Origin: an uncultured Flavobacteriales bacterium
GTDB lineage: Bacteria; Bacteroidota; Bacteroidia; Palsa-965
Reading direction: 5' to 3'
Length of the DNA stretch: 64,000 nucleotides
Assembly: GCA_903873905.1 (NCBI GenBank)
Contig: CAIQQJ010000059.1
Coordinates: 1-64,000, forward strand
Shown here: positions 24,803 to 61,098 of the stretch, in pieces
Numbering within the stretch: the first letter of the stretch is position 1
Layout of the letters: each line of letters starts with the position of its first letter
The notes under the pieces: generated by a model
Told to the model about the DNA's origin: nothing
What the model saw: the letters and a program-made list of their open reading frames with translations, nothing else
The model's database searches: none
Made by a program: the position numbers and the translations under genes

Positions 24803-24920
24803 GGCGTGTCCCCAATCCCAACAATGCTGTTGGGATTGAGGTCGGGCTTTACGCTTTTACTCCTCGTCCCAACAGTACTGTGGGGACTGTGGGGTAACCG
24901 CTTCAATCCCTCACGCAAAA
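24803..24920 (+). repeat. Modular intergenic element family 1, copy A
   Basis: GGCGTGTCC-[CCAATCCCAACAATGCTGTTGGGATTGA]-GGTCGGGCTTTACGCTTTTACTCCTCGT-[CCCAACAGTACTGTGGGG..]-GTAACCGCTTCAATCCCTCACGCAAAA. Confidence 0.92.
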
Positions 24921-25027
24921 AAGAATTGCCACAATAGCACAAAGGTCCGAAGGACCTTAGAAATTTCAAAAAAACTCATTTCATATATTCAAAGTCCCTC
25001 TCCACCATAGAGGGATTTAGGGTGAGG

Positions 25028-27490
25028 TCAAGCAGGATCCACATCAGGAACAACTCTGATCTTTTTGAAATCAACATTTGTTTTGAAAAGCAATATTTCC
25101 CTCGCTAGAATTTCCTTCAACTTCGTGCTGTTCGATTCGCGTTCCACTTTTATCAGAATATTTTTAACATATTCATCACGAATTTTTCCCACTGGAGGAA
25201 ATTCCGGACCCAGTACCCGTTCCCTGAATTGCTCTCGCAATCGCTCTGCAAAATATTGCGCGCCATTATCCAACAAAACATGATCCTTTGCCTTTAAAGA
25301 CAACCTGATCAAACGATAGAATGGTGGATATTTAAATTCCATTCGTTCCGCTAATTCATTTCGGTACATCGTTTCATAATCATGTGCAATAACACATTTA
25401 ATAATCGGATGCTCCGGATTATACGATTGAATGATTACTTCTCCAACTTTTTCCCTTCGTCCCGCTCGACCTGCAACTTGTGCCATTAATTGAAAAGCAC
25501 GTTCTGCAGCACGGAAGTCAGGATAATTCATCAATTGATCAGCAGATAAAACTCCCACAAGAGAAACATTTCCGAAATCCAAACCTTTCGTCACCATCTG
25601 TGTGCCGACCAAAATATCAATCTTGTGCGCTTCAAAATCATTCACCAAATTCTGCATCCCAAATTTTCCACGCGTGGTATCTAAATCCATCCGTGCAATT
25701 TTGGCATTGGGCAAAATCAATTGCAATTCCTCTTCAATTTTTTCCGTTCCAAAACCTTTCATCTTTAATTCCGTGCTTCCACAAGCCGGACATTGACGCG
25801 GTGGCGGTGTTGTCCATCCACAATAATGGCAGCGTAACTGATCAGAATTTTTATGATATGTCAAACTCACATCACAACGCACACAATGAGGAATGTGACC
25901 GCAGTCCTGACATTCAATGGAAGGCGCAAACCCACGACGATTTTGAAAAAGAATTATTTGTTCTTTTGCCAGTAATGCCGCTTCAATTCGCTCAATGAGA
26001 TAGGGAGAAAAATGCGATTTCATCAATCGCTTTTTCGAAAGTTCTTTTATATCCACAACCGTAATTTCCGGAAGTGAAGTTCCTCCATAACGTTCTGTCA
26101 AAACAGCAATTCCATAACGACCATGTTGTGCATGATGAAAAGATTCCACAGATGGTGTTGCTGATCCCAATAAAGTTTTTGCGCCATGCAATTTAGAAAG
26201 CCAAATCGCACTCTCGCGCGCATTGTAACGCGGTGCAGGATCCTGTTGTTTGAAGGAGGAATCATGTTCTTCATCGATAATAACCAAACCCAATTTCCCA
26301 AATGGCAAGAACATGGAAGAACGTGCACCGATCACAACATTTGGTTTGTTTTTCAAAACTTCATTCCAAACCTCTACACGCTCATTTTCATTGAAGCGGG
26401 AATGATAGACCAAAACTTTTTCGCCAAAATGTTTTTGCAAACGCACAATCAATTGAGTCGTCAAGGCAATTTCAGGAAGCAAATATAAAACCTGTTTCCC
26501 CAATGCAATTTGTTCGGAAATTAAACGAATATAAACTTCTGTTTTCCCACTCGAGGTAACACCGTGTAAAAGACAAACATCTTTTGTTTCAAAATGCGAG
26601 CGAATTTCTGTAATTGCAATTTCCTGATGTGGGCTTAAGGTCAAAATTTTATTGGCACTTTCCTTCAACATCAATCGGGAAACTTCCATTTCTTCCAAAA
26701 CGAAAATCTTCTTTCTAACCAGGGAAGAAAAAATTCCATCTCCAACACCTGATGATTTCAAAAGATCAATTTTCCGAACTGCCTTTGGATTTTTACTATA
26801 TCGCTCCGACAAATGAATGAAAGCCATCAGCAATTGTAATTGCTTGAAAGCACGCTTTTCCAATTGTTCGAAAACTGCTTTCAACTTTTCTTCATCGGCA
26901 AATTCATCGGCAAACCGAACATACGTTTCATATTTCGGTTGATAGCGCTGTTGAATTTCCTCATATATCAAAATCACTCCTTCATCCAACAACTTTCTAA
27001 TTACCGGATAAACCGTTTTCTTATCAAGTATTGCTGAAATATCTTCCAACGTCAAAGTGGTTCGCACATCAAGCGCCTCACATAATGAAAAAGCCTCATC
27101 ATCCAGATTTTTTCTGTCGCCTTCCCAACTTACATTCAACAATATTTTTGTTTCACTCGTCAATCGCAGTCCTGACGGAAGCGCCGCCAACATGATTTCT
27201 CCTTTTGCACACAAATAATAATGCGACATCCATTCCCAAAAATTCAATTGTAATTCTGTTACCACTGGATGTTCATCCAAAACAGAATCAATATACTTTG
27301 TGGTATATGACGGAGCCGTTTCATGCACTTTCCAAACAATCGCAGCATACAATTTATTTTTTCCGAATTGAACCACCACGCGCATACCTGGCCGAACACG
27401 ATCGTTTAAGCCTTGCGGAATACGATACGTAAACAGATTGGGCAGTGAAAGCGGAAGAACAAGATCAGCGAAATAGTCGGTGCGAGACAT
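25028..27490 (-). CDS. priA: Primosomal protein N' (PriA helicase)
   Basis: LLHGVTSSGKTEVY, IDEEHDSSFKQ, zinc-binding CQDCGHIPHCVRCDVSLTYHK...CHYCG...CPACG, GTQMVTKGLDF. Confidence 0.97.
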   Translation of the reverse strand: MSRTDYFADLVLPLSLPNLFTYRIPQGLNDRVRPGMRVVVQFGKNKLYAAIVWKVHETAPSYTTKYIDSVLDEHPVVTELQLNFWEWMSHYYLCAKGEIMLAALPSGLRLTSETKILLNVSWEGDRKNLDDEAFSLCEALDVRTTLTLEDISAILDKKTVYPVIRKLLDEGVILIYEEIQQRYQPKYETYVRFADEFADEEKLKAVFEQLEKRAFKQLQLLMAFIHLSERYSKNPKAVRKIDLLKSSGVGDGIFSSLVRKKIFVLEEMEVSRLMLKESANKILTLSPHQEIAITEIRSHFETKDVCLLHGVTSSGKTEVYIRLISEQIALGKQVLYLLPEIALTTQLIVRLQKHFGEKVLVYHSRFNENERVEVWNEVLKNKPNVVIGARSSMFLPFGKLGLVIIDEEHDSSFKQQDPAPRYNARESAIWLSKLHGAKTLLGSATPSVESFHHAQHGRYGIAVLTERYGGTSLPEITVVDIKELSKKRLMKSHFSPYLIERIEAALLAKEQIILFQNRRGFAPSIECQDCGHIPHCVRCDVSLTYHKNSDQLRCHYCGWTTPPPRQCPACGSTELKMKGFGTEKIEEELQLILPNAKIARMDLDTTRGKFGMQNLVNDFEAHKIDILVGTQMVTKGLDFGNVSLVGVLSADQLMNYPDFRAAERAFQLMAQVAGRAGRREKVGEVIIQSYNPEHPIIKCVIAHDYETMYRNELAERMEFKYPPFYRLIRLSLKAKDHVLLDNGAQYFAERLREQFRERVLGPEFPPVGKIRDEYVKNILIKVERESNSTKLKEILAREILLFKTNVDFKKIRVVPDVDPA

Positions 27491-27667
27491 AAAATAAAAT
27501 CAAACCTCAAATCAGATAGTAATGCCAAACCTTTTCCCTGAAATAAACTCGGAAAAACAACAAAATAATTTACTTGGCAATGATTGCATTTTTGATTTTA
27601 TAAAGATAATCCTAAACTTCAATTTTCATGAGGGAAATTTCTTCATTTTTGTAGTATAAATTGTTCT

Positions 27668-29284
27668 ATGACCACCGAAGAAATTGCGAAAAAGCTCAAC
27701 CTCACTGCTCAATTGCAGGAACTTCACGGACAAAATCCGTTCAAGGTGAAGGCCTTAACAAATGCAGCTTTCCGATTAAAAAAAACCGAGATTAGTCTGG
27801 AAGGAAAAAGTCTTGAGGAATTGACTGCAATGGAAGGAATTGGAAAGGGAATTGCTGCAAAGATTTTTGAATTGCAAACCACAGGAAAGCTCAAGGAACT
27901 GGAAGAGGTGCTTTCAATTACGCCACTTGGTGTAGTTGAAATGTTGCATATAAAGGGAATTGGGCCGAAAAAAGTTGCGCAATTATGGAAAGAACTGGAA
28001 GTGGAATCGCCTGGAGAACTTTTATACGCCTGCAATGAAAATCGTTTGGTTGAACTCAAGGGATTCGGTGAAAAAACACAAGCCGCTGTAAAAAAGTTCA
28101 TTGAATTTTCAATGGAGAGTAAAGGCAAATTCCATTATGCCGCCTGTGAAAAAACGGCACTTGCATTGGTGGAATTCCTAAAAAAACAAACTGGCTCAGA
28201 ATTCATTTCGCTCTCCGGAGACATTCGCAGAAAATCCATCATCATTTTGGGAATTGAAATTGTTGCCGCCGTTCCTGAAAAGAAAATCAATTTATTGAAT
28301 TTTGAAAACCCTAGAAATATTCCTGTTCATGTTCACACCTGCGAAGAGGATGAATTCGCTGAGGTTTTGTTCCGCACAACAGCTTCTCCTTCTCATTTGA
28401 AACAACTCGAAACTTTTTCATACCGCGGAGAGTTACATCCTGAAACGGAAGAAGAACTTTACGCCGGATATGAATTGGATTATATTGAGCCTGAATTGCG
28501 CGAAGGCCGAGGCGAAATAATGTTGGCGCAACACAGCAAACTTCCAAAACTCATTGAGGAAACTGATCTGAAAGGAGTGCTGCATAATCACAGCAAATAC
28601 AGCGATGGCATGAGTTCACTTTCTCAAATGGCAGAAGCTTGTCGTACATTGGGCTATTCCTATTTCGGAATTTGTGACCATTCTCAATCTGCTTTTTATG
28701 CAAATGGAATGAAAGTCTATTCCGTTCAAGAACAACAATTGGAAATTGATGAACTCAATAAGAAAATGTTTCCTTTCAAAATTTTCAAGGGAATAGAATC
28801 TGACATTTTGAATAACGGCTCGCTCGATTATGAAAAAGAAATTCTTGAAACCTTCGATTTCGTTGTTGCTTCCGTTCATTCCAATCTGAAAATGGATAAG
28901 GAAAAAGCAACTGCAAGATTATTGAAAGCGATTGAAAATCCATTCACAACAATTTTAGGTCATCCAACAGGCAGATTATTGCTTTCACGTGAAGGTTATC
29001 CAATCGATCATAAAAAAATAATTGACGCTTGTGCCGCGAATGGAGTTGCCATAGAATTGAATGCGCATCCTTATCGTTTGGATATCGATTGGACTTGGAT
29101 TCCTTATTGTATTGAAAAAGGCATTATGATTTCCATCAATCCCGACGCGCATGAAACAGCTGGCTTGCTCGATTTGCATTGGGGAATCGCTGCTGCAAGA
29201 AAAGGAATGTTGACGAAAGAAACTTGTTTGAATGCAATGAGTCTGGAGGAAATTACAAAGTGGTTTGGTGCGAAGAAAAAATAA
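27668..29284 (+). CDS. PolX-type DNA polymerase/PHP domain protein
   Basis: HhH motifs (GIGKGIAAKI; IKGIGPKKVAQLW), PHP domain LHNHSKYSDGMSSL...GICDHSQSA...INPDAHE. Confidence 0.92.
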   Translation: MTTEEIAKKLNLTAQLQELHGQNPFKVKALTNAAFRLKKTEISLEGKSLEELTAMEGIGKGIAAKIFELQTTGKLKELEEVLSITPLGVVEMLHIKGIGPKKVAQLWKELEVESPGELLYACNENRLVELKGFGEKTQAAVKKFIEFSMESKGKFHYAACEKTALALVEFLKKQTGSEFISLSGDIRRKSIIILGIEIVAAVPEKKINLLNFENPRNIPVHVHTCEEDEFAEVLFRTTASPSHLKQLETFSYRGELHPETEEELYAGYELDYIEPELREGRGEIMLAQHSKLPKLIEETDLKGVLHNHSKYSDGMSSLSQMAEACRTLGYSYFGICDHSQSAFYANGMKVYSVQEQQLEIDELNKKMFPFKIFKGIESDILNNGSLDYEKEILETFDFVVASVHSNLKMDKEKATARLLKAIENPFTTILGHPTGRLLLSREGYPIDHKKIIDACAANGVAIELNAHPYRLDIDWTWIPYCIEKGIMISINPDAHETAGLLDLHWGIAAARKGMLTKETCLNAMSLEEITKWFGAKKK

Positions 29285-29310
29285 TTTTGAATTTTAAATT
29301 TTGAATTGGG

Positions 29311-29508
29311 ATGGGAAATAAATTTGTCAAAATTGTCATTTGCATTGTAATGATAATTTCAGGTTTCTTATTGCCAGGGATTGCATTTACAACACCGATG
29401 GGCGACCATCACATAAATGAATTACTAATTATACTTGGGTTCATTTTGATGCCACTTGGAATTATTCTATTAGTTTTTGCCTCCATTTCAAAAGCGAAAA
29501 AATGCTAA
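29311..29508 (+). CDS. Small two-TM membrane protein
   Basis: 65 aa, two hydrophobic segments, not overlapped by a better ORF. Confidence 0.5.
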   Translation: MGNKFVKIVICIVMIISGFLLPGIAFTTPMGDHHINELLIILGFILMPLGIILLVFASISKAKKC

Positions 29509-29589
29509 TTAAAAATTTAGAATTCAAAATTCAAAATTAATTTCACAACTTTTCAACCTTTCAACTTTCAAACATTTCAACCGTAAAAA

Positions 29590-31107
29590 ATGGCCCTCCT
29601 AAATTCCATAGCAAGTTGGTACATGACCAAACGAATCCATCAAATAGATTTGTTCAGGAAATATCCGCATGAAGTGCAGCAAGAGTGGTTTCAGAAATTA
29701 ATTGAATCAGGCAGAGAAACAGAGTTTGGGAAAAAATATGGGTTTAATGAAATCACAAACGCTGAACAATTCCGAAGGCAAATTCCATTACAAAATTACG
29801 ATTCGTTAAAACCGTACATCGAACGTTTACGCAAAGGTGAACAGTTTTTATTGTGGCCAACCGACGTAAAATGGTTTGCCAAATCGGCCGGAACCACCAA
29901 CGACAAAAGCAAATTCATTCCCATCACCGAAGAATCATTGAAAGGCTGCCATTACAAAGGTGGAAAAGACATGATCACTTTTTATTGTAATAATTATCCC
30001 GATCATCATTTGTTCACCGGAAAAAATCTTGCGCTCGGTGGTTCGCATCAAACGGAAGTTTATGATTTCAATGAATCCTACACGGGCGACGTTTCTGCAA
30101 TCATTATTCAGAATCTCCCATTGATCGCTGACTATTTTCGTTCTCCAAGTGTTGACATTGCCTTGATTGGGGAATGGGAAGAGAAATTGGAAAAAGTTGC
30201 ATCCTCCACCATCGATGAAAATGTGGTGAGCCTTGCTGGTGTACCTTCCTGGATGTTGGTGTTGCTCAAGAAAGTTTTGAATGACACCGGGAAAAAATCC
30301 ATCAAGGAAATTTGGCCGAACCTTGAAGTTTATTTTCATGGCGGTGTAAGTTATTCTCCCTATCGAAATCAGGTAAATGAATTGTTGGGTTTCGATATTC
30401 ATTTGCTTGAATTGTTCAATGCATCGGAAGGTTTTTTCGGAATGCAAGACCAGCGCGATTCTAATGAATTGTTACTCCTCCTGGATTACGGAATATATTA
30501 TGAATTTCTCCCTGAAGAGGAATGGAACAACGAAAACGGCAAAACACTGACACTTGATGAAGTTGTATTAGGTCACAACTACGCACTTGTCATCTCAACA
30601 ACAGGAGGTTTATGGCGCTACAATGTTGGCGACACCATTGAATTCACAAATCTCCTTCCCTACCGTTTCAAAATCACTGGAAGAACGAAACATTTCATCA
30701 ACGCGTTCGGAGAAGAATTGATGATTGGCAATGCGGAGAAAGCCTTAGAAATTGCTTGTGAAAAAACGGGTGCGGAAATAAATGAATACACCGCTGCTCC
30801 TATTTACATGAACAAAGAAAATAAACAAGGCGCTCATGAATGGCTAATCGAATTCAAAAAAACTCCCGCCGATTTAATTTATTTTTCCGAACTCCTCGAC
30901 AACGCACTAAAAACAATCAATTCTGATTACGAAGCAAAACGGTATCACAACCTGGCCTTGCAGTTTCCAATCATACGAAGTCTTCCGCAAGGAACATTTT
31001 ACAATTGGTTGAAATCAAAAAACAAATTGGGCGGTCAACATAAAATTCCACGCTTGTCGAATGAAAGAAAATTTGTGGAAGAAATCCTGGCATTGAAGAA
31101 ATGGTAG
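29590..31107 (+). CDS. GH3 (auxin-responsive promoter) family protein
   Basis: FAKSAGTTNDKSKFIPIT, ASEGFFGMQ, GGLWRYNVGDTIEF, KHFINAFGEELM. Confidence 0.92.
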   Translation: MALLNSIASWYMTKRIHQIDLFRKYPHEVQQEWFQKLIESGRETEFGKKYGFNEITNAEQFRRQIPLQNYDSLKPYIERLRKGEQFLLWPTDVKWFAKSAGTTNDKSKFIPITEESLKGCHYKGGKDMITFYCNNYPDHHLFTGKNLALGGSHQTEVYDFNESYTGDVSAIIIQNLPLIADYFRSPSVDIALIGEWEEKLEKVASSTIDENVVSLAGVPSWMLVLLKKVLNDTGKKSIKEIWPNLEVYFHGGVSYSPYRNQVNELLGFDIHLLELFNASEGFFGMQDQRDSNELLLLLDYGIYYEFLPEEEWNNENGKTLTLDEVVLGHNYALVISTTGGLWRYNVGDTIEFTNLLPYRFKITGRTKHFINAFGEELMIGNAEKALEIACEKTGAEINEYTAAPIYMNKENKQGAHEWLIEFKKTPADLIYFSELLDNALKTINSDYEAKRYHNLALQFPIIRSLPQGTFYNWLKSKNKLGGQHKIPRLSNERKFVEEILALKKW

Positions 31108-31176
31108 CAAGTATCAGGTATCTGGTATCAAGTATTTGGCATTAAATATTTCTTGAAATAATTAATTCTCAATTTT

Positions 31177-31262
31177 GGGCGTGTCCCTCCTGCGTCAGGT
31201 CGGGCTTTTCACTGCAAGTCCTCCTGCGTCTGGGCTTTCCGTTACAATCCCTCACGCAAAAA
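31177..31262 (+). repeat. Modular intergenic element family 1, copy B
   Basis: GGGCGTGTCC-CTCCTGCGTCA-GGTCGGGCTTTTCACTGCAAGTCC-TCCTGCGTCT-GGGCTTTCCGTTACAATCCCTCACGCAAAA. Confidence 0.93.
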
Positions 31263-31325
31263 CAGCATCTACCAGATACCAAATACCCGAAACCCGATAC
31301 CTTTTTTTTCCACTAACTTTACTAA

Positions 31326-32117
31326 ATGATCCGCCTGCTCACATTCCTAACAATACTTCTTCCACTCGCAGCATTTTCCCCTGTTATGAAGCTGCCGGAT
31401 TTTGTCATCAATGTTGAAGCTTCAAGAATGACTTCCGACAATATCGGAAACGTATATCTCATCAAGGACGAATCCATTGCGAAATACGATTCGAAAGGAG
31501 TTCTGCAAAAAACATTCAGCAATAAAAATTTCGGAGCCATCACTTCGGCTGACGCGACCAATGCCTTGCGCATCATTTTATTTTACAAGGATTTTAATCG
31601 CGTTGTCACGCTCGACAATACACTAAGTCAGAATGGCGATCCTTTGACCTTGGAAACAATTGGCTATCCACTTGCCTCTCTCGTTGCAGCTTCGCACGAC
31701 AATGGTTTGTGGGTTTTTGATCAGGCGAATTTCGAATTGCTTCGTCTCAATAGAAACCTGCAAGTGGAAAATCGCAGTGGAAATCTTTCCCAAATACTGG
31801 GAATTGATTTACAACCCAATTTTCTAATTGAAAAAGACAATCGTTTATTTCTGAATAATCCATCCACAGGAATTCTCACGTTTGATGTATTCGGAACCTA
31901 TTCAAAAACATTGCCGATAAAAAATCTAAATAAATTCCAAGTGGTGGACGATGCAATTCTTTATTTCGAAAAAGGGACCTTGGTTACCGAATCCATTAGT
32001 ATCGACAATAAACTTTCTTTCACCGAACCTTCCGACACCACCGCACTCGATATGCGTATGGAAAAAAATGCTGTTTTCGTTTTGAAAAGGAATTCATTGG
32101 AGATTTACAATAAATAA
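31326..32117 (+). CDS. Hypothetical secreted protein, possibly beta-propeller
   Basis: signal peptide, beta-rich sequence (DNIGNVYLIKDESIAKYDSKG). Confidence 0.6.
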   Translation: MIRLLTFLTILLPLAAFSPVMKLPDFVINVEASRMTSDNIGNVYLIKDESIAKYDSKGVLQKTFSNKNFGAITSADATNALRIILFYKDFNRVVTLDNTLSQNGDPLTLETIGYPLASLVAASHDNGLWVFDQANFELLRLNRNLQVENRSGNLSQILGIDLQPNFLIEKDNRLFLNNPSTGILTFDVFGTYSKTLPIKNLNKFQVVDDAILYFEKGTLVTESISIDNKLSFTEPSDTTALDMRMEKNAVFVLKRNSLEIYNK

Positions 32118-32123
32118 AATTTT

Positions 32124-32201
32124 ATTGTCAGACTGAGTGTTTTTTGTCAACGGAAATTTCAATTACTTCTCAAAAATCAATTGACAAAAAAAGTATCGAA
32201 A
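32124..32201 (+). repeat. Intergenic element family 2, with internal hairpin
   Basis: GTCAGACTGAGTG-TTTTTTGTCAA...TTGACAAAAAA-AGTATCGAAA. Confidence 0.75.
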
Positions 32202-32203
32202 TA

Positions 32204-32273
32204 TGCGTGAGGGATTGCAGCAAGCTACCACGTAGCGCGAAAAGCCCGACCTGAGGAACGAAGGACACGCCCC
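32204..32273 (-). repeat. Modular intergenic element family 1, copy C
   Basis: minus strand GGGCGTGTCC-TTCGTTCCTCA-GGTCGGGCTTTTCGCGCTACGTGGTAGCTTGCTGCAATCCCTCACGCA. Confidence 0.92.
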
Positions 32274-32392
32274 AATAATATAGAAGCAGTAGTATTTAGA
32301 AGTAAGGGTTTCGGATATTAAAAAAAACGTCAGAAAAAAAATGAATATCGAAGTGAAAAAAATCTGAAATTTCGAATTCTCAAATTTTCAAA

Positions 32393-33391
32393 TCAAGAAT
32401 TCATTTTCACAGCCAAATCAATCAGTCTGTTGGAGTATCCCATTTCATTATCATACCATCCCAAAACTTTCACCATGTTCCCTACGATGGAAGTGAACTC
32501 GGCATCGTAAACACAGGAGTGTGGATTTCCTACACAATCAATGGAGACAATCGGATCTTCGGTATACTCCAGAATGCTCTTTAATTCGCCCTGAGCAGCT
32601 TTTTTGAAGGCCGCATTGATTTCCTTTACTGAAGCGCTTTTATTCAATACGCACGTAATGTCCGTCAAAGAACCATCGGGCACAGGCACACGAATTCCGC
32701 AGCCACCCAATTTTCCTTCGAGGTGCGGGAATATTTTTGTGATGGCTTTCGCTGCTCCTGTTGAAGTTGGAATCATTGAAACGGCTGCAGCACGCGCACG
32801 ACGCAAATCGGAATGTGGCGCATCATGCAAACGCTGATCGCCGGTATAAGAATGGACGGTTGTGATATAGCCATCTTCAATTCCCCAATTGTCGTCGAGT
32901 ACTTTTATCATTGGTGCGGCACAATTGGTGGTGCAGGAAGCATTGGAAACAATCAGATCCTCATTGGTGACAATGGAATCGTTGACGCCCATCACAATCG
33001 CCTTGATGTCATTTCCATTGGGTGGTGCAGAAAGCAAAACTTTTTTCGCTCCAGCTTTCAAATGAAGTGTTGCAGAAGCTGTATCCAAAAATTTTCCAGT
33101 CGATTCAATAACGATATCCGTTCCAAACTCACCCCATTTCAATTTCGATGGATCTTTTTCAGCGGTAACCGGAATACGTTTTCCATTGACGATTATCGCA
33201 TTTCCCTCTACGCTAACATCGCCATTAAAGCGTCGATGAACAGAATCATACTTCAACAAATGCGCGAGTGTGTGAGCATCTGTTAGATCGTTTATGGCAA
33301 CGATTTCAATATCCTTTCGTTCGAAAATCACGCGAAGAGAAACTCGTCCGATTCGACCGAAACCGTTTATTGCAATGCGAAGAGGTTTCAT
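32393..33391 (-). CDS. gap: Glyceraldehyde-3-phosphate dehydrogenase
   Basis: INGFGRIGR, SNASCTTNC active site, WYDNEMGYSNR. Confidence 0.97.
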   Translation of the reverse strand: MKPLRIAINGFGRIGRVSLRVIFERKDIEIVAINDLTDAHTLAHLLKYDSVHRRFNGDVSVEGNAIIVNGKRIPVTAEKDPSKLKWGEFGTDIVIESTGKFLDTASATLHLKAGAKKVLLSAPPNGNDIKAIVMGVNDSIVTNEDLIVSNASCTTNCAAPMIKVLDDNWGIEDGYITTVHSYTGDQRLHDAPHSDLRRARAAAVSMIPTSTGAAKAITKIFPHLEGKLGGCGIRVPVPDGSLTDITCVLNKSASVKEINAAFKKAAQGELKSILEYTEDPIVSIDCVGNPHSCVYDAEFTSIVGNMVKVLGWYDNEMGYSNRLIDLAVKMNS

Positions 33392-33565
33392 AAATAAAAT
33401 ATTTGATTCAAAGTTACAAGATTGGAATCAGTAATTGGTGATTGGTGATTGGTGATTGTTCTCAATGTCACTTGGGCGAAAAAACAAAATAGAGGTAAGC
33501 ACATAAACCAACCACAAATAATTTTCTTAATCATAAAAAATCAATTTTACCAATGAAAAAGGCAT

Positions 33566-33595
33566 AAAAAAAGGGGCAATGAAGCCCCTTTCTTT
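33566..33595 (-). terminator. Terminator downstream of the SWIB-domain gene
   Basis: AAAGGGGC aatgaa GCCCCTTT. Confidence 0.8.
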
Positions 33596-33611
33596 GAAAA
33601 TAATCCGCAGA

Positions 33612-33950
33612 CTATTTTACGTGTTTTGAAAGAACTTTTGCAAGTTCGAACATGGAAATTTGTGCTTTTCCACCGAAAACAACTTTCAATTTCGCGTCAG
33701 CATTGATCATGCGACGGTTCTTTTTGTCTTGAAGACCATTTTTCTTAATGTACACCCAGATCTTTTTAACGATCTCTGTGCGAGGAATTGGTTTGCTACC
33801 AACTACTTCTGCAAGAGCTGGGCTAAGTGTGAGTTCTTTCATGAAAGCAGCATTCGGCTTACGAGCTGATTTCTTTTTAGCTGCTTTTTTAGGAGCTGAT
33901 TTTTTAGGAGCTGATTTCTTAGCTGCTTTTTTTGCGACTTTTTTTGCCAT
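33612..33950 (-). CDS. SWIB/MDM2 domain protein with lysine-rich histone H1-like N-terminal tail
   Basis: MAKKVAKKAAKKSAPKKSAPKKAAKKKSARK tail; SWIB core ...EVVGSKPIPRTEIVKKIWVYIKKNGLQDKKNRRMINADAKLKVVFGGKAQISMFELAKVLSKHV. Confidence 0.92.
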   Translation of the reverse strand: MAKKVAKKAAKKSAPKKSAPKKAAKKKSARKPNAAFMKELTLSPALAEVVGSKPIPRTEIVKKIWVYIKKNGLQDKKNRRMINADAKLKVVFGGKAQISMFELAKVLSKHVK

Positions 33951-34149
33951 GATTTTTTTTTGTTTTTGTTAATACCAATTGGTGCCCCAAAAATAGGATA
34001 AAAACTTATTGATAAACACGTTTTTACCAATGGTTAATAAAATGTCGAAAAAATCAAAAAAAAGTGATTCTATAAGGGGAATTTTCTCTTTTCAACTTTT
34101 TTTTTGTGCGGCGATTTTTTTTCTGAAATTTTTATCGATACAAAAAAAA

Positions 34150-34177
34150 CATCCCGATTGTTTTCACAACCGGGATG
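34150..34177 (-). terminator. Terminator of the 34203-37496 gene
   Basis: CATCCCGATTG ttttca CAACCGGGATG flanked by A/T tracts. Confidence 0.8.
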
Positions 34178-34202
34178 CTTCGAAAAAAAAATAATTTATT
34201 TA

Positions 34203-45687: not shown

Positions 45688-45859
45688 ATTGGAATTATTT
45701 TATTCCCAAATATAAAGATCGCAGTTTTTGAAAAAACAGACTTTCCTAAATGTATTCAACAAGTTATTCAGTTGGGAAAACACTTTGCGTCCTTAGCGAC
45801 TCTGCTGCAAAAACTTTTTACAATTGGTCTCATGCCGCAGAGTCGCAGAGGACGCGGAG

Positions 45860-46888
45860 TTAGAATCGAAAATTCTTAATCGTCTCTACAAAGAATTTCA
45901 CTTTCTCCACTTCCGTGTCGGGATATAATCCGTGACCAAGATTTGCGATATGGCGATTTGGTCCGAAGGCGCGGAGCATTTTTTCCGTTTCCTTTTTGAT
46001 CGTATCATAATCGGCATAGAGTAAACAGGGATCCATGTTTCCTTGAAGCGTTTTGTTTTCACCAATCAATTCACGTGATTCTGCAATGTCCATTGTCCAA
46101 TCCAATCCAATTGTATCGCAATTGATATTGCGCAAATCTTTTCGAATGAAATGCGCGTCTTTTGCAAAAACGGTAATGGGAACCAAAGGATGAATTTCAT
46201 CGCAGATTCTGGCAATGTATTGCAATGAAAATTCCTTGTATTGTTCGGGTGAAAGAACGCCCGCCCATGAATCAAAAATTTGAATCATATCAGCACCTGC
46301 ATGCACTTGTGCTTTCAAATATGAAATGATGCTTTGTGTAATTTTTTCGAGAAGAAGATGTGCTTGCTTCGGTTCGGTATAGAGGAATTTTTTTGCTTTG
46401 GAAAATGTTTTCGATCCACTTCCTTCAATCATGTAGGAAAGAAGTGTCCAAGGTGCACCCGAAAATCCAATGAGCGGAACACGATTTGCAAGTGCCGCTT
46501 TTGCCAAACGAATTGCATCGCACACGTAAGCGAGATCATTTGCGCCATCAACGACATGCAACTTTTCTATATCAGAAGAATTTTTAATTGTGTTTTCAAA
46601 CCATGGACCTTTTGCCTCGATCATTTTGTAAGGAAGTCCCATTGCTTCGGGAATAACCAAAATGTCGGAGAAAATAATTGCGGCATCCACACCAAGAATA
46701 TCGACTGGTTGAATGGTTACTTCCGCAGCGAACTCGGGTGTTTTTACAAGTTCAATGAAGCCGCCCATTTTCGCACGCACTTCACGGTACTCAGGCAAAA
46801 CTCTTCCAGCTTGTCGCATCAACCAAACAGGAGTGCGTTCTGTCTTTTCGCCACGAGCGGCACGGAGAATCAAATCATTTTGTAACAT
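45860..46888 (-). CDS. hemE: Uroporphyrinogen decarboxylase
   Basis: [44 protein letters not shown]. Confidence 0.97.
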
Positions 46889-47023: not shown

Positions 47024-47065
47024 TTTATCAGACTGAGTAGCCGACGAAGGAGGCGTATCGCAGTC
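47024..47065 (+). repeat. Intergenic element family 2, short copy abutting a family 1 copy
   Basis: TCAGACTGAGTAGCCGACGAAGGAGGCGTATCGCAGTC. Confidence 0.65.
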
Positions 47066-47158
47066 TTGCGTGAGGGATTGCAGTGGAAAGCCTCCCAACA
47101 GCATTGTTGGGAGACTTGCAGCGAGCCCGACCCTCAACAGTATTGTTGGGGGCACGCC
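47066..47158 (-). repeat. Modular intergenic element family 1, copy D
   Basis: minus strand GGCGTGCC-CCCAACAATACTGTTGAG-GGTCGGGCTCGCTGCAAGTCT-CCCAACAATGCTGTTGGG-AGGCTTTCCACTGCAATCCCTCACGCAA. Confidence 0.93.
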
Positions 47159-47330
47159 ATTATAAACAAGGGGCGGGTAAAAATTTGAATGTAGAATATC
47201 CAATGTAGAATATCCGATATGGAAATAAAAAAATTGGGAAAGCGTTTTTCATTGGTAATTGGTAATCACGCAATTGGTAATCCTATAATTGGTAATCATT
47301 TTTTCCAAGGCAATTATGATTCCAATCAAG

Positions 47331-50086: not shown

Positions 50087-50128
50087 AAATATCAGTACAC
50101 ATGGAGAATTTAATTCCGAGAAATATTT

Positions 50129-50226
50129 GGGCGTGTCCCTCCTACGTCAGGTCGGGCTTTACGCTTTTACTCCTCGTCCCAACATTTCTGTTGGGAGGGT
50201 AACCGCTTCAATCCCTCACGCAAAAA
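50129..50226 (+). repeat. Modular intergenic element family 1, copy F
   Basis: GGGCGTGTCC-CTCCTACGTCA-GGTCGGGCTTTACGCTTTTACTCCTCGT-CCCAACATTTCTGTTGGG-AGGGTAACCGCTTCAATCCCTCACGCAAAA. Confidence 0.93.
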
Positions 50227-50263
50227 ACAACAAACAACAAACAACAAACAACAATCTTTCCCA

Positions 50264-52549: not shown

Positions 52550-52552
52550 CTT

Positions 52553-52652
52553 CGATACATTTTTTGTCAGACGATTTCATCATACTGAATGATCTTTGTC
52601 AGCTGATAACCTTATTCTTTCCCAATACTTCCTCTGACAAAAAAATGTATCG
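52553..52652. repeat. About 100-nt element with 19/20-nt near-perfect terminal inverted repeats (family 2-like)
   Basis: CGATACATTTTTTGTCAGA ... TCTGACAAAAAAATGTATCG. Confidence 0.85.
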
Positions 52653-52654
52653 AT

Positions 52655-53776
52655 TCACATCATCTGATACCACCGATTTGCTTTCATCTTATGCACGAAT
52701 TTACCATGCGGTGCTCGGAATCGATAACCTAGATTTATATCGCCTGCAAAGTAAGTTGTCGTTACCTTAATTTGATTTGAATTGTATTTATTAATATCGT
52801 ACCTACCGGTAATGGAATAAAACCATCTCTTCCCATTCAATCCAATTGCAATTCTAAAATCATTTGCTACTCCTACTTTCCAATAATCCGCGGGTTCACT
52901 TCCCTGACTGGTTTTAATTGTCCGATGTTGAAAATCCAATCCACTGGTAAAAGTTGCATTTGCATACAACGTTTTCCATAATACAAGATTGTACGAATAT
53001 CCAGGTCCGATTGAAATTCCAGAAACCTTGAAGTAATTCAACTTGCCATATTCCAAAAATAAAGATTGTGCGGAACTTGGAATAAAAGAGGAATCGGTAG
53101 TCAATAAATTTTGATAAATATTATTCAACAACAAAAATGACCCAGCTGATTTCAATTGGCGTTGTGTATTGTAGTAGGCAGAGGAATAGGAAAAATGTTT
53201 CTTGTTGAAGATGAAAATCGTTTTAACACGAAGGGACCGAACATTCATTGAGGGATTTTGAAGAAACACACCCGTTGAGTCAAATGCCAACGTATCATAC
53301 ATTCTGGAATTGGGATAATAAAAACCTTTGTAATTCCTGTAACTACTCTCTACTCGAAAGCGATAAGCGCTGAAAGATAAATTCACGGCCTTGTGTGTTG
53401 TGGTCCCATATTTATGAATTTGATCGTCTGTCGCTTCTGATTTTCCCAAACCAAATGACAATGAAATTTTATCGAAATCTATCGACACTCCCGGTGACCA
53501 ATTTGTTCCTGCTTTCAGTTGAGGTGCTCCCCATCCCAAAGTGTCGGTTGACATTAATTGCGAAAAAGTAAAATCATATTCCCGATAAGATTGTCCTAGC
53601 GTAACAATGAATTTATCAGGGAAAGTCCGAATGTAGTTGGTGTCTTTTGTATTCCATTTTGTAATCAAGGTATCAAAATGGGAATGCTGAATGCCAACCG
53701 AAACTTCTTGAGCGGATACAGAATGAATTATTATGTAAAAAAGAAAAATGGAAATTAAATGGCGGTGAAATTTCAT
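52655..53776 (-). CDS. DUF4421-like outer-membrane protein
   Basis: MKFHRHLISIFLFYIIIHSVSAQ signal peptide; beta-strand-rich; family from memory. Confidence 0.6.
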   Translation of the reverse strand: MKFHRHLISIFLFYIIIHSVSAQEVSVGIQHSHFDTLITKWNTKDTNYIRTFPDKFIVTLGQSYREYDFTFSQLMSTDTLGWGAPQLKAGTNWSPGVSIDFDKISLSFGLGKSEATDDQIHKYGTTTHKAVNLSFSAYRFRVESSYRNYKGFYYPNSRMYDTLAFDSTGVFLQNPSMNVRSLRVKTIFIFNKKHFSYSSAYYNTQRQLKSAGSFLLLNNIYQNLLTTDSSFIPSSAQSLFLEYGKLNYFKVSGISIGPGYSYNLVLWKTLYANATFTSGLDFQHRTIKTSQGSEPADYWKVGVANDFRIAIGLNGKRWFYSITGRYDINKYNSNQIKVTTTYFAGDINLGYRFRAPHGKFVHKMKANRWYQMM

Positions 53777-53819
53777 TGTTATTTTGTTGAGCAATGTGAA
53801 TTTACAAATTTCCAGCAAA

Positions 53820-54026
53820 TTATTCCATAACAATTGTATCTCCGTCCACTTCTATTTTATCACCCACACGAAGTTTCGCCCGCTTTCGGTATTCGATTTC
53901 ACCATTCAATTTCACCAAACCATCCTCCACAATAATTTTCGCGTGACCACCCGTTTCTGCAATGCCAAGAACTTTTAGCAATTGAATTAGCTCGATAAAT
54001 TCACCTTTGATTTTAAAGTTTTGCAT
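53820..54026 (-). CDS. S4-domain RNA-binding protein (YaaA/RlbA-like)
   Basis: FKIKGEFIELIQLLKVLGIAETGGHAKIIVEDGLVKLNGEIEYRKRAKLRVGD. Confidence 0.9.
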   Translation of the reverse strand: MQNFKIKGEFIELIQLLKVLGIAETGGHAKIIVEDGLVKLNGEIEYRKRAKLRVGDKIEVDGDTIVME

Positions 54027-54506
54027 AGGATAGTTGAAAATGATTTTATTTCGATTTATTTGAATGACAATTTTTCTTTAAAACTTTTGCTAAAAAAAAT
54101 TATTGTGCAAGGTAATAAGTTTCGAGTTCATTGTTTTTTCAAAAAATCATCTATGAAAAACCTCCAAACCTCAAAATTCAAATCAGTAAAGTGAATTTAG
54201 GTCCAGTTTGATGTTAAAAGGATTTAATTACATGTGATCAATATCAAAATGCATTGTGCTCAGTATCACATTAAATATAGGACCTACACAATACATTTGA
54301 GGTGACTAGTACAAAAATAAATCTAGTTATAGGTTGTGTTTTTTATTGTCAACTATTAGTTGTTGCATTGATAGGGTCAGTGCATTCACGGGGGTAATCC
54401 CATGTAGATTTTAACGTATTAATAATACCATAATCAAATGAGAAAGACTTATTTTCCTATATTTGAGGCTGAATTTTTTTTTTGCAAAAACCCCAAACCC
54501 CTTCCA

Positions 54507-57017
54507 ATGAAAAAAAAATCTTACAATGTGAGGACGCTCTCACGATCATTATTAGTATTTGTACTGAGCTTTGCTAGCTTGATGTCAAGTGGACAAACCT
54601 TGGTTGATTTTAATGCCGCCATTCTAAGTGGAATTTCACCACAATTGCCTTATAATTCAGTAACTGCAAATTTGAATTCGACTGCAATTACTAGATCATC
54701 TCTGACTTCCGCAACTGCAACCGCCGGCTTTGGTTCTAGTTCTTGGCCGACAACAGCTTCAGCGCCAACAAGTGCAAAATTCTTGACCTTCACTCTGACG
54801 GCAACAGCAGCACATGTCATAAATCTTGGAGGAGCCACACTATCTTTTGGTATTTCGAGAAGCGGAGTAGGTCCTACAATTGCATATATCTATTCTAGTG
54901 TTTCAGGCTATTCAAGTACAGCCAATGTATTGAACACAACCACACCCATCGCATCACTGCCAACAGTTTCGACTGTCAATTATGTTTTCCCTTCAACAGG
55001 TGCCTACGACAATCTTTCTACAGTCACAATACATATCTATGCAGATGTAGCTGGATCTTCAGCTGGCATTCTGTACCTAAAAAATCCTTCATCAGGAAAT
55101 ATTAGAATTTCTGGAGGTTCAGTTACCTCGTGCATTCCTGTTTTCTCCTTAATTTCAAGCAATAGTCCAATTTGTTCAGGTTCAACACTCAACCTAACTT
55201 CAACTGCAACCTCTGGAATAACTCCTATTACTTATTCATGGTCAGGACCCAATGGATTTGCTTCATCCAGCCAGAATCCAAGTATACCTTCAGCTACAAC
55301 TGCTGCTGTTGGAACATATTCGGTAACGGCTTCAAATTCTTGTGGAACCTCACCGTCCAGCACAACCAATGTTGCGGTCAGTTCAATTGTTATGACGGCA
55401 TTGTCCCAAACAAATATTTCTTGCAATAACGGATCAAATGGCTCAGCCAGTGTAAATACCGCAAGTGGTGGTCAAGGTTCATACACCTATAATTGGACAC
55501 CTGGTAATCCAATTGGGGATGGCACTACTACCGTTTCTGGACTTACTGTCGGAACGTATACTTGCAACGTAACTGATGGAATCGGTTGTATGGCAACACA
55601 ACCATTTAATATTACTCAACCATCTGCTATTGCCCTAACTTTAAATGGAACAAATGCAACATGCGCTAATAATGATGGGTCTGCAACTGTCTCTGCTTCC
55701 GGTGGAGCTGGAGGTTATACATATTTATGGATGCCTGGTGCATCAACATCAGCAAATCCAACTGGACTTTCTGCCGCAACATATACCTGTACAGTTACAG
55801 ATATCAATTCTTGCTCCAATTCAGGAACAGTTCTTATCACTGCCGCATCAGTATGCCTTACACAGTTAAATGCAGCATCGTGTGGAGCTACTTTAACTGC
55901 TTTGAATCAACCAATTTATTGTAACGCAGTAGCTGGTGCGACAAACTACCAGTACACTTTTAAGCAGGGTGCAACAACCGTTGCGCTGTATACTCGCGGT
56001 AATTATTTAACGAATTGCATCTTATCAACAATTCCATCTCTCCAATATGCTCAAACCTATCAGGTGACTGTTAGTTCTTATGTTGGAGGTAATTGGAGTA
56101 GTTTTGGGCCAAGTTGTAATGTAACCACTCCAGCTTTCCCTGCTGGGCACGTCAGCGCTGGGTCTTGTGGAATCACTCTAACTTCACTTGCTACGCCTAT
56201 TTATTGCAATACTGTAATTGGCGCAACAAATTATGAATGGAAATTCATGCAAGGTGCAACACTAATTGGAACCTATCAAAGGGGTAATTGGCTTACAGAC
56301 ATTACACCTACTAATGTTAACAGCCTGTCATACGGACAATCATACGATGTATACGTCCGAGCGCAAGAGGGCGGAATTTGGGGACCTTTCGGAACTTCTT
56401 GTGCATTAACTACTCCTGCTTTTCCTTCTACGCAGGTTGGTTCAACTTGGTGTAATAGTTCTGTAACTAATCTGAGTTCTGGTATTTCTTGCAATATTGT
56501 TTTAGGTGCTACAAATTATCAATGGAAGGCGGAAAAGGGTGCATTTTCCTCAATAGTGAATCGTGGCAGCAACCTAAATAATTGGAGATTGTCTTGGAAT
56601 GTTGGAACCACTATAAACACAACATACAATGTTTCAGTACGTGCAATGGTCGGGGGTGTTTGGGGAACTTTTGGACCTGTTTGCACTATTTACGTTGGGC
56701 CGAATTTATTGCCACAATTTCCTGGAGATAATATTGTTCCGAGTGAAGTCCGACTTGCAAACCCAGATGTGAATTTTGGAAGTGATGAATCTTCGATATC
56801 AGTTTTCCCAAACCCATTCTCCGAAAACATCACAGTAACAACTGATGCAGATGTTCAGAGTCTTTCCATTTACAATTCATTTGGAGAACTTGTCCGAATG
56901 GTAGAAATCAAGAATGGTACTGCTGAAATAAGTCTTGGAGATTTGGCGAATGGCATTTATTTGATCCAAGCAAAAACAGCAAATGGAATGCTCACTAAGC
57001 GAGTTATAAAACAATAA
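54507..57017 (+). CDS. Secreted T9SS (type A) protein with SprB-like repeats and three tandem GATNY...FGP(S/V)C modules
   Basis: SprB-like repeats (ISCNNGSNGSASVNTASGGQGSYTYNWTP); three about 85-aa modules; C-terminal ISVFPNPFSENITVTTDADVQSLSIYNSFGEL. Confidence 0.88.
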   Translation: MKKKSYNVRTLSRSLLVFVLSFASLMSSGQTLVDFNAAILSGISPQLPYNSVTANLNSTAITRSSLTSATATAGFGSSSWPTTASAPTSAKFLTFTLTATAAHVINLGGATLSFGISRSGVGPTIAYIYSSVSGYSSTANVLNTTTPIASLPTVSTVNYVFPSTGAYDNLSTVTIHIYADVAGSSAGILYLKNPSSGNIRISGGSVTSCIPVFSLISSNSPICSGSTLNLTSTATSGITPITYSWSGPNGFASSSQNPSIPSATTAAVGTYSVTASNSCGTSPSSTTNVAVSSIVMTALSQTNISCNNGSNGSASVNTASGGQGSYTYNWTPGNPIGDGTTTVSGLTVGTYTCNVTDGIGCMATQPFNITQPSAIALTLNGTNATCANNDGSATVSASGGAGGYTYLWMPGASTSANPTGLSAATYTCTVTDINSCSNSGTVLITAASVCLTQLNAASCGATLTALNQPIYCNAVAGATNYQYTFKQGATTVALYTRGNYLTNCILSTIPSLQYAQTYQVTVSSYVGGNWSSFGPSCNVTTPAFPAGHVSAGSCGITLTSLATPIYCNTVIGATNYEWKFMQGATLIGTYQRGNWLTDITPTNVNSLSYGQSYDVYVRAQEGGIWGPFGTSCALTTPAFPSTQVGSTWCNSSVTNLSSGISCNIVLGATNYQWKAEKGAFSSIVNRGSNLNNWRLSWNVGTTINTTYNVSVRAMVGGVWGTFGPVCTIYVGPNLLPQFPGDNIVPSEVRLANPDVNFGSDESSISVFPNPFSENITVTTDADVQSLSIYNSFGELVRMVEIKNGTAEISLGDLANGIYLIQAKTANGMLTKRVIKQ

Positions 57018-57037
57018 TTTTCATTAATAACATATCA

Positions 57038-57078
57038 GCATAAAAAAGCGGGAAGAATATCTTCCCGCTTTTTTATGC
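57038..57078 (+). terminator. Strong bidirectional-looking terminator hairpin
   Basis: GCATAAAAAAGCGGGAAGA ata TCTTCCCGCTTTTTTATGC. Confidence 0.92.
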
Positions 57079-57125
57079 TATTAATTTTTCAGTAACCTTG
57101 TTATTTTGAAAACACTTTTCAAACC

Positions 57126-59393
57126 TCACGCCTTCACCCCAGCCCGAATAATATTCAGCGCACCACCCGCTTTAAACCACTCAATCTGCTGTTCATTGTA
57201 AGTATGATTCACTGAAATCTCTTCCTTACTTCCATCAGCATGATTCAATACCAATGTCAGAGGTTTATTAGGAGCAAATGAATTCAATCCAACAATGTCA
57301 ATTGAATCATCCTCTATGATTTTGTTGTAATCTTCTTTGTTAGCAAATGTCAACGCCAACATTCCCTGTTTTTTCAAATTCGTCTCGTGAATACGTGCGA
57401 ATGATTTCACAAGTACGGCGCGTACACCCAAGAAACGCGGCTCCATCGCAGCATGCTCACGTGAAGAGCCTTCTCCGTAATTTTCATCACCCACTACAAT
57501 CGACCCGATTCCTTTTGCTTTGTAATCGCGCTGAACTTTAGGAACAGAATCGTATGCACCAGTCAATTGATTTTTTACGTTGTCGGTTTTTTCATTGAAG
57601 AAATTTACTGCACCAATCAACATGTTGTTGGAAATATTATCGAGGTGACCACGATATTTCAACCATGGACCAGCCATAGAAATATGATCCGTTGTACATT
57701 TTCCTTTTGCCTTGATCAACAATTTCAAACCTTTCAAATCAATACCCTCCCATGCTGTAAATGGATCCAACAATTGAAGACGATCTGATGTTGCTGAAAC
57801 TTTTATTACAACACCACTTCCATCAGCAGCTGGTTGTTGGTAACCGGCATCCTCAACAGCAAATCCTTTTTTCGGCAGCTCATCTCCTTTTGGTTCGTCC
57901 AATTTTACTTTTTCTCCTTTATCATTAATCAGAAAATCAGTAATCGGATTGAAAGTCAAATCTCCTGCGATTGCCAATGCTGTTACCATTTCAGGTGAAG
58001 CAACAAATGCCATCGTGTTCGGATTTCCATCAGCACGTTTCGCAAAATTTCTATTGAAAGAATGAACGATAGTATTTTTCTCTTGCTTCTCCGCTCCCAT
58101 TCTATCCCACATTCCAATGCAAGGTCCACAAGCATTCGTGAATATTTTTGCACCAATGGATTCAAACACATCCACAAATCCATCACGTTGAATCGTAAAT
58201 CGAATTTGTTCAGAACCCGGGTTAATCAAAAAATCCGCTTTTGCTTTTAATCCTTTTTCCTTTACTTGTTTCGCAACAGAAACAGCACGGGAGATATCTT
58301 CATAAGAAGAATTTGTGCAAGAGCCAATCAAACCAACTTCAACCTTCACAGGCCAGTTGTTTTGTTTCACAACTTCTTTCATTTTGGAAATTGGCGTTGC
58401 CAAATCCGGAGTGAAAGGTCCGTTCAAATGCGGTTCCAATTCCGACAAATTGATTTCAATAACCTCATCAAAATAACTGGAAGGGTCTGCATAAACTTCG
58501 TTGTCGCCAGTGAGATGTTCTTTCACACCATCAGCTAATTTCGCAACCTCTGCTCTTCCTGTTGCATTCAAATAACGCGACATCGATTCATCGTAACCGA
58601 ATGTTGAAGTTGTAGCTCCAATTTCAGCACCCATATTGCAGATGGTTCCTTTTCCTGTGCAAGACATTGATGTTGCACCTTCTCCAAAATATTCTACAAT
58701 TGCTCCAGTTCCACCTTTTACTGTAAGAATTCCTGCAACTTTCAAAATCACATCTTTCGGTGCAGTCCAACCCGATAATTTTCCTGTCAATTTTATGCCT
58801 ATCAATTTTGGAAATTTTAATTCCCAAGGAAGTCCTGCCATGACATCACACGCATCAGCTCCTCCAACACCAATCGCAATCATTCCTAATCCACCTGCAT
58901 TCACTGTATGTGAATCGGTTCCAATCATCATGCCACCTGGAAACGCGTAGTTTTCTAATACAACTTGGTGAATGATACCTGCACCTGGTTTCCAAAATCC
59001 AATTCCATATTTATTCGAAACGGAAGCAAGAAAATCATAAACTTCTTTGCTTTCGTTATTCGCTACTGCCAAATCTGCTGTCGCTCCATTTTTTGCTGTA
59101 ATCAAATGATCGCAATGTACTGTAGAAGGAACCGCCACTTTTTTTCTTCCTGCTTGCATGAATTGCAACAAAGCCATTTGCGCAGTTGCATCTTGCATCG
59201 CCACACGATCCGGATTAAAATCAACGTAATCTTTTCCACGACCAAATGCATTCGATGGAAGATTTTCTGCAAGATGTGCGTAAAGAATTTTTTCTGTGAG
59301 TGTAAGTGGACGTCCTACTAATTTACGTGCCGCTTCCACTCTAGCAGGAAGTGCCGAATACAATCGCTTAATCATTTCAAGATCGAAAACCAT
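57126..59393 (-). CDS. acnA: Aconitate hydratase
   Basis: [43 protein letters not shown]. Confidence 0.96.
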
Positions 59394-59711
59394 TTTTGAT
59401 AGATTTTAATTTCTTATTCCGTTAATTCAATTGCCAAATTTACAAATTCGCTAGTTGCTAGAATAAGTTTTTTATGAGAATTTCTCGAATGAGGAGCGGA
59501 CCAAAAGTGCAAAAATGTTTTTCATGTCCTGCTTTCCGTTACAAATCCTCGTTCAGCCCACAAACCACGCCACTGCGGCTTTTCCCCAAAGAGACCACTA
59601 TGCTACACTACGATCAGGGCTAAATTCAATTCATTCGGATCAAAACTTTTTCACCCCATTCCCATGTCCCAAGTCCCAAGTCTCGCTTCTATTAGGTAAT
59701 TTTACTTCCAA

Positions 59712-60950
59712 ATGAATTCCTCATTTCGAGAAAATTTTCGAGTTGCATTATCCTCCATAAGAGGACAATCACTTCGTGCATTTCTTACTATCTTAATTAT
59801 CGCTCTTGGAATTGGCGCACTCGTTGGAATCCTAACTTCCATTGATGTGATGAAAACTTCGCTCACCAGCAATTTCACTAGCATGGGCGCAAACACATTC
59901 ACAATTAGAAATAGGGAATTTAGAATTCGTATTGGACGCGGTGGAAAAAAACCAAAAAAATTCCGTCCAATTACTTTCAAGGAAGCAATGGAATTTTCAG
60001 ATCGATTTGATTTCCCAGGTACCGTTTCTGTTTCCACAATGGCGTCAATGGCTTCAACATTGAAATACAAATCGGAAAAAACAAATCCAAATATTCAAGT
60101 CCTTGGAGTGGATCAAAATTATCTTGCCACTTCCGGTTATGAAATCGAAAGAGGACGGAATTTTTCACGACTCGAAGCCACGAGCGGTGCGCATGTCGCA
60201 CTCATTGGCCATGATTTGATTTTAACGCTTTTCAAAAAGGAAGATCCAATAGGAAAAGAAATTTCCGTTGGCGCAGGAAAATATTTGATTATCGGAACAT
60301 TAAAACCAAAAGGAAGTGCAATGGGTTTTGGTGGCGATAAAACAGCCATGTTGCCAATAGAAAATGTGCGTCAATATTTTTCAAGACCCGACATGACATT
60401 TACCATCAGTGTACTTTCAAGAGACGCCAGATTGATGGAGGCAACGATAAGCAATGCAACTGGCCTCTTTCGAATCATCCGAAAAGTAAACATTGGTGAT
60501 GATGAAAATTTTGACATCATCAAGAGCGATAGTTTTGCATCTGCACTTTTTGAGGATCTGAAATACGTAACGATTGGTGCAACAATAATCGGAATCATTA
60601 CACTACTTGGTGCTGCAATAGGCTTAATGAATATTATGTTGGTTTCCGTTACAGAACGTACGCGAGAAATAGGAATCAGAAAAGCATTAGGTGCAACAAG
60701 ATCTTCCATCCGAAATCAATTCCTCACTGAAGCAATTGTCATTTGTCAATTCGGCGGACTGTTCGGTGTTCTCCTCGCAATGATTATCGGACTTCTAATT
60801 TCTTTCTCAATGAATTCCCCTTTCGTAATGCCTTGGGCTTGGATTATTTTAGGCTTTACAATTTGTTTTTGCGTCGGACTTATTTCCGGAATTTATCCAG
60901 CCATCAAAGCTTCTAGATTAGATCCTATCGAAGCGCTTCGTTACGAATAA
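59712..60950 (+). CDS. MacB-type ABC transporter permease
   Basis: MacB_PCD N-terminal domain; VTERTREIGIRKALGATRSSIRNQFLTEA; C-terminal GIYPAIKASRLDPIEALRYE. Confidence 0.95.
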   Translation: MNSSFRENFRVALSSIRGQSLRAFLTILIIALGIGALVGILTSIDVMKTSLTSNFTSMGANTFTIRNREFRIRIGRGGKKPKKFRPITFKEAMEFSDRFDFPGTVSVSTMASMASTLKYKSEKTNPNIQVLGVDQNYLATSGYEIERGRNFSRLEATSGAHVALIGHDLILTLFKKEDPIGKEISVGAGKYLIIGTLKPKGSAMGFGGDKTAMLPIENVRQYFSRPDMTFTISVLSRDARLMEATISNATGLFRIIRKVNIGDDENFDIIKSDSFASALFEDLKYVTIGATIIGIITLLGAAIGLMNIMLVSVTERTREIGIRKALGATRSSIRNQFLTEAIVICQFGGLFGVLLAMIIGLLISFSMNSPFVMPWAWIILGFTICFCVGLISGIYPAIKASRLDPIEALRYE

Positions 60951-60985
60951 TTTTATTTTATTCAATTTCACTATTCAATATTTTT

Positions 60986-61098
60986 GGGGCGTGTCCCTTT
61001 GGGTCGGGCTTTCCGCTGCAAGTCCTCAGCCGTGGTGTCGGGTTTACAAACCCTACACCACGTCTTCCGGGCTTTCCACTACAATCCCTCACGCAAAA
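60986..61098 (+). repeat. Modular intergenic element family 1, copy G
   Basis: GGGGCGTGTCC-CTTTG-GGTCGGGCTTTCCGCTGCAAGTCC-TCAGCCGTGGTGTCGGGTTTACAAACCCTACACCACGTCTTCC-GGGCTTTCCACTACAATCCCTCACGCAAAA. Confidence 0.94.

Follow-up and report, generated by a model that had tools for sequence, protein, structure and literature searches.

The 64,000-nt window analyzed here (positions 1 to 64,000 of contig CAIQQJ010000059.1, assembly GCA_903873905.1, from an uncultured Flavobacteriales bacterium of the Palsa-965 lineage) contains seven copies (A–G) of a short intergenic sequence with a fixed core and variable hairpin arms, raising the question of whether this element is a structured RNA or a form of mobile DNA. 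The initial annotation proposed either a structured RNA or a non-autonomous element similar to repetitive extragenic palindromes (REPs) or miniature inverted-repeat transposable elements (MITEs), and named no described function for it. In outline this proposal stands, given that the structure is supported by covariation and mobile-like behavior by copy number, empty sites, and neutral orientation; the element is not undescribed, being by sequence a homologue of the Rfam family Flavo-1 (RF01705). The copies are probably an extended three-way-junction form of Flavo-1 whose behavior is that of a mobile DNA repeat, dispersed and non-autonomous.

All seven copies were found within 2 nt of their annotated positions and share one common core, the half-motif of which occurs five times at three or fewer mismatches where 0.06 would be expected, a count reached in none of 100 shuffles. 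A covariance model (R1), trained on 14 short copies from the same genome, recovers all seven (E ≤ 5e-8). Read on the annotated strand, the element shows a conserved 5' foot (TNATTW) and GG, then a closing stem P1 (GCGTG, paired with CACGC at the far end), a hairpin P2 (arm1), TC, a stem P3, an internal loop, a clamp, and arm2, and is trailed by an A-rich run. P3 is composed of GGG-C-UU paired with AA-U-CCC; beyond it come the 3x3 internal loop, which is conserved (UCC/UKC, or GGA/GMA on the other strand), a two-pair GC/GC clamp, and arm2. In copies C and G, among others, the internal-loop motif is present twice, head to head.

Compensatory changes indicate that P1, P2, and P3 form a three-way junction. 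The closing stem, first suggested by the complementarity of the ends, co-varies on both sides (GCGTT/AACGC, GCGCG/CGCGC, GGCTT/AAGCC, and GCGGC/GCCGC, with GCGAT/ATCGC in one phage copy), and P3 occurs as GGG/CCC, AGG/CCT, GCG/CGC, and GTG/CAC, its adjoining pair as UU/AA, UA/UA, and UG/CA. Over 84 distinct rows, pairing holds in 97.6% of cells, and 63 cells show changes on both sides compared to 21 in shuffles, a value that exceeds all 500 shuffles and every slid control. Counts of G.U against A.C are contradictory (15:3 in P1 and P3, 18:32 in the arms) and the minimum free energy favors the other strand; the counts do not decide between RNA and DNA, nor between strands.

At its default threshold, Rfam identified only a tRNA in the window. 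When an E-value threshold is applied instead, RF01705 matches five of the seven, at 29–36 bits and on the strand opposite to that annotated, copies A and D not being listed at E ≤ 1; the gathering cut-off of 42 bits therefore hides their homology to Flavo-1, and none of 17 loci tested, including 16 of this genome that hold extended copies, reached it. The same architecture passes this cut-off elsewhere, with six stretches that are also R1 matches with P1 and P2 scoring 67.1 (L178), 65.3 (L169), 63.0 (L170), 62.9 (L105), 62.8 (L164), and 59.5 bits (L133), and three-way-junction copies in Flavobacteriaceae and other Bacteroidota scoring 48–67 bits. In this genome, ten copies exceed 42 bits, and many of the 78 listed Flavo-1 matches coincide with extended copies. 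Given these matches, the window copies are, as judged from their sequence, divergent and extended relatives homologous to Flavo-1. Rfam models only P3 onward, as a single hairpin with unpaired ends, and P1 and P2 are thus new structure.

When Flavo-1 was described in 2010, it was regarded as a likely RNA without a cis-regulatory role, and no function was given (Weinberg et al., PMC2864571). The proviso of the initial annotation that a named family might already explain the element is half borne out, since Rfam names the element without explaining it. Literature searches by sequence strings returned no relevant paper. The family is already known, whereas the three-way-junction form, the genome-scale repeat behavior, and the in-place covariation described below did not turn up in the open literature that was searched.

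How widely is the element dispersed? Searching the whole genome (3.93 Mb), as the initial annotation had suggested, yielded 110 R1 matches at E ≤ 1, of which 93 have an E of 0.0011 or better, and an exact end-to-end pattern matched 36 times (0 for a reversed control pattern); own-genome copies were studied as stretches around the model matches. The density of one copy per 9 kb noted earlier is accurate inside the window, which has about four times the genome-wide average of one per ~36–42 kb. Copy number varies widely across seven congeneric genomes (~110, 13, 7, 3, 1, 1, and 0), and R1 matches occur in 27 of the 59 genomes searched (own included). A scan of named genomes gave matches in Flavobacteriia, Cytophagia, Chitinophagia, Sphingobacteriia, Bacteroidales, Treponema, and a B. 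fragilis plasmid, while a plasmid collection gave none; matches thus fall throughout the Bacteroidota, the range described for Flavo-1 (Bacteroidetes), plus Treponema. Elements with the same three-way-junction architecture were noted in Treponema genomes (L114, L148, L166, and L180). Seventeen IMG/VR contigs also match, the model confirming most of them at E ≤ 2e-6, and the element is present in two Microcystis phage records. In Microcystis phage MZ447863 (L360 2484–2547), it is a complete Bacteroidota-type element, which may reflect a wrong host assignment or a crossing between phyla.

Essentially all of the 83 own-genome copies examined are intergenic, and their orientation in tandem contexts is neutral (21:19, with 5:4 in a further own-genome count). 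No significant replication-strand bias was seen in seven complete genomes. In the window, all seven copies are likewise intergenic, four (A, B, D, and G) being flanked by convergent genes, two (C and F) by tandem genes, and one (E) by divergent genes, in agreement with the four convergent contexts first reported. Across the genome, 25 of 79 classifiable copies lie between convergent genes, which, along with the GC-rich stem, would suit intrinsic or bidirectional terminators. However, half of the copies are in tandem contexts, some just before start codons, and on the annotated strand a T-tract precedes the stem and an A-tract follows it, meaning that neither strand presents a stem followed by a U-tract; we find it scarcely credible that the copies are terminators.

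Comparison at the genus level found the sites of C, D, and G empty in congeneric relatives, with the same gene order wherever neighbors were checkable. In one relative (G004), the intergenic gaps at C and D measure 72 and 25 bp; the corresponding gaps in the window span 218 and 275 bp. Identity reaches 93% or more in thirteen pairs of copies from unrelated loci, whose flanks are 50–69% identical under forced global alignment. Both dispersal and lineage-specific sites are directly visible in these data.

Turnover of the arms is equally evident. The core is conserved, the arms vary freely provided the hairpin form stays, and arm1 and arm2 types are reshuffled among copies. One arm hairpin, CCCAACA-N4-TGTTGGG, occurs 34 times inside elements and 7 times outside (within the stretches around model matches), and another, GTGTCGGG...CCCGACAC, is the repeat beside a REP-associated tyrosine transposase (RAYT) gene of this genome. 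At orthologous Flavobacterium sites, other dispersed hairpins replace the arm in place. We also noted ctgtaatcatta or a near variant directly before several own copies, and cttcgatac directly after others, within the same group (C178:26946, C62:22318, C14:11329, and C179:19065); these strings are possibly other repeats abutting the element.

Several observations in this paragraph and the next weigh against a mobile repeat. Neither target duplication nor precise insertion was seen, in a comparison with composition-biased flanks and no close strain pair. Genes neighboring 108 loci belong to ordinary families, with no enriched family and no recombinase or transposase family recognized, and no mobilizing enzyme was found. 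For an integron attC site, a folded site with core boxes, an integrase gene would be expected alongside, whereas the neighborhoods of the copies are enriched in no recombinase family. A composite transposon was also considered and rejected, ordinary genes lying between copies a few kb apart in two genomes. Resident RAYT (Y1) transposases moving ordinary REPs would account for short, palindromic, intergenic repeats in high copy, for arms that sometimes resemble RAYT-linked REPs, and for the presence of the element within 1.5 kb of 3 of 91 RAYT loci in relatives (~0.2 expected, a rough estimate). However, each of those three loci has its own simple REPs adjoining the RAYT gene, and each of the three RAYT (Y1_Tnp) genes in this genome (L031, L032, and L033) has its own distinct simple REPs nearby and none has the element beside it. 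In addition, no GTAG or CGTC tag was found at the hairpin foot, which reads TNATTW before GGGCGT with an A-run after CACGC, and no PF01797 gene is present in G049 (25 copies), G020 (15), or G026 (9), all 98–100% complete. Because a Y1_Tnp gene is missing from three near-complete genomes with 9–25 copies, the element does not require RAYT transposases, and their moving it, largely refuted by these findings, is very improbable.

At two Flavobacterium sites, both picked solely for their high-scoring copies, ~19 of 30 loci per site retain the element at the same position and in the same orientation, at a coding identity of 68–90%; the first site precedes a gene whose product starts MNYLIT and the second one whose product starts MRNTITS. 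P3 shows in-place compensatory changes there (CCCG/CGGG, CCTG/CAGG, CCAG/CTGG, and CCGG/CCGG, with few mismatches), the third pair being C-G, T-A, A-T, or G-C; regular-expression picks at these orthologous sites were wrong in a few rows (e.g., L399, L400, L403, L407, and L440), and were rechecked by eye. Top-scoring Flavobacterium copies have a gene-relative orientation of 24:6, a count in which three loci appear to be one orthologous site, and often lie 10–40 nt upstream of a start codon. At the second site, one locus (L434) carries an apparent scar, AAAGCTATAAAGGGCTTAAA, that looks like an internal deletion of the element. Because of the in-place retention and compensatory changes, some copies, notably in Flavobacterium, look functional. 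At least there, the structure persists in situ, whether through selection or through conversion from other copies or template switching, alternatives that the data do not separate.

These Flavobacterium findings, along with the strong covariation and the conservation of unpaired loop bases, favor the view taken by Rfam of a functional RNA module, i.e., a structured small RNA (sRNA) or untranslated-region element that, once folded in the transcript, would bind a protein or stabilize or insulate neighboring mRNAs, its spread reflecting recruitment into many transcripts. Set against this are the neutral orientation in this genome, the lineage-specific presence at sites C, D, and G, and the G.U and A.C counts, which favor no consistent strand. 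Moreover, in a 2021 F. psychrophilum transcriptome, Flavo-1 matches lay in sense or antisense indistinctly and many were untranscribed (PMC9723704). We consider the RNA module unlikely, and a non-autonomous REP-like mobile DNA element fits better than an RNA gene.

If the element is such a mobile DNA repeat, its fold and its distribution suggest how it might spread. By its sequence, a strand that is single has ends that pair as P1, enclosing P2 and P3, and the comparisons show copies arising at fresh intergenic sites in either orientation. A trans-acting enzyme may recognize the folded strand (its junction, internal loop, and foot) and copy or move single-stranded DNA, much like REP or IS200-type single-stranded DNA elements. 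The arms would change through template switching, inter-copy recombination, or the insertion of other REPs, and some copies, notably the intercistronic ones in Flavobacterium, may later have been retained for a hairpin function in the transcript. More tentatively, and with rather less confidence, one could extend this to Flavo-1 as a whole, which would then be primarily a mobile single-stranded DNA structure whose three-way-junction core is moved by a non-RAYT enzyme and offers other REPs a landing platform. The structure would be common to Bacteroidota and Treponema and carried by phages, and some of its copies would later have been recruited as conserved intercistronic structures. Flavo-1 has stood in Rfam as an sRNA without known function for more than 15 years and is listed as one of the most abundant sRNA families. 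Should the mobile DNA structure prove true, these sRNA counts would be misassigned and a new non-RAYT mobilization system would await discovery in Bacteroidota, while the in-place covariation in Flavobacterium provides concrete loci for direct testing of function.

The individual window copies are as follows. Copy A (14853..14979, minus strand; R1 38.9 bits) has a type-3 arm2 with an extra insertion and a P3 of AGG/CCT. Copy B (24802..24919, plus strand; R1 48.7 bits, RF01705 32.8 bits on the minus strand) has an arm1 of CCAATCCCAACA-TGTTGGGATTG and an arm2 closed by TTACTCC/GGGGTAA. Copy C (31177..31260, plus strand; R1 55.1 bits, RF01705 35.3 bits) carries its two head-to-head internal-loop motifs as CTGCAAGTCC ... 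GGGCTTTCCG, at a site empty in syntenic relatives. The same is true of the site of copy D (32202..32272, minus strand), a short form whose arm2 is a GCTAC-GTAGC hairpin; it scores 94.8 bits with R1 and belonged to the training set. Copy E (47065..47159, minus strand) scores 38.0 bits with R1 and 29.1 bits with RF01705. In copy F (50129..50224, plus strand; R1 58.5 bits, RF01705 35.5 bits), arm2 is closed by TTACTCC/GGGTAA, and in copy G (60987..61097, plus strand; R1 49.3 bits, RF01705 31.6 bits) it holds GTGTCGGGTTTACAAACCCTACAC, which resembles a REP adjoining a RAYT gene of the same genome.

The doubled half-motif, originally assigned to B, D, and G, is present in G but not in B or D, the true carriers being C and G (and partly E); at the equivalent position, B and F have a TTACTCC...GGGGTAA stem and D has its short hairpin. 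Two simple-form relatives of Flavo-1 that lack P1 and P2, and were absent from the family as first annotated, lie on the minus (Rfam) strand at 51..129 (RF01705 37.6 bits, E 2e-4) and 59521..59625 (29.0 bits, E 0.05).

The window also holds other inverted repeats. A perfect 20-bp palindrome with a 3-nt loop (57037–57079), located between convergent genes, is probably a bidirectional terminator, and the Rfam MIR8001 and L20_leader matches at this position look like chance. A 28-nt inverted repeat (45782–45860; 82% complementary, 23-nt spacer) lies just downstream of a gene on the minus strand (45860–46888).

Among known systems, Flavo-1 shares P3, the 3x3 internal loop, the GC clamp, and the variable arm2 with the window copies, on the opposite strand, but the window form adds the closing stem P1 and the hairpin P2, and where Rfam lists an sRNA, the copies studied here behave genome-wide like a dispersed DNA repeat. 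With REP/REPIN and RAYT systems, the element has in common short intergenic hairpins, a high and variable copy number, and imperfect stems with conserved unpaired bases; it differs in having neither a cognate RAYT nor a GTAG-type tag, in being retained for long at some sites, and in its architecture, a three-way junction where those systems have one hairpin or a REP pair. MITEs are similarly short and non-coding, with complementary ends and gain between genes, although the complementary ends of this element span only 5 nt, with no target duplication seen and no parental transposon identified.

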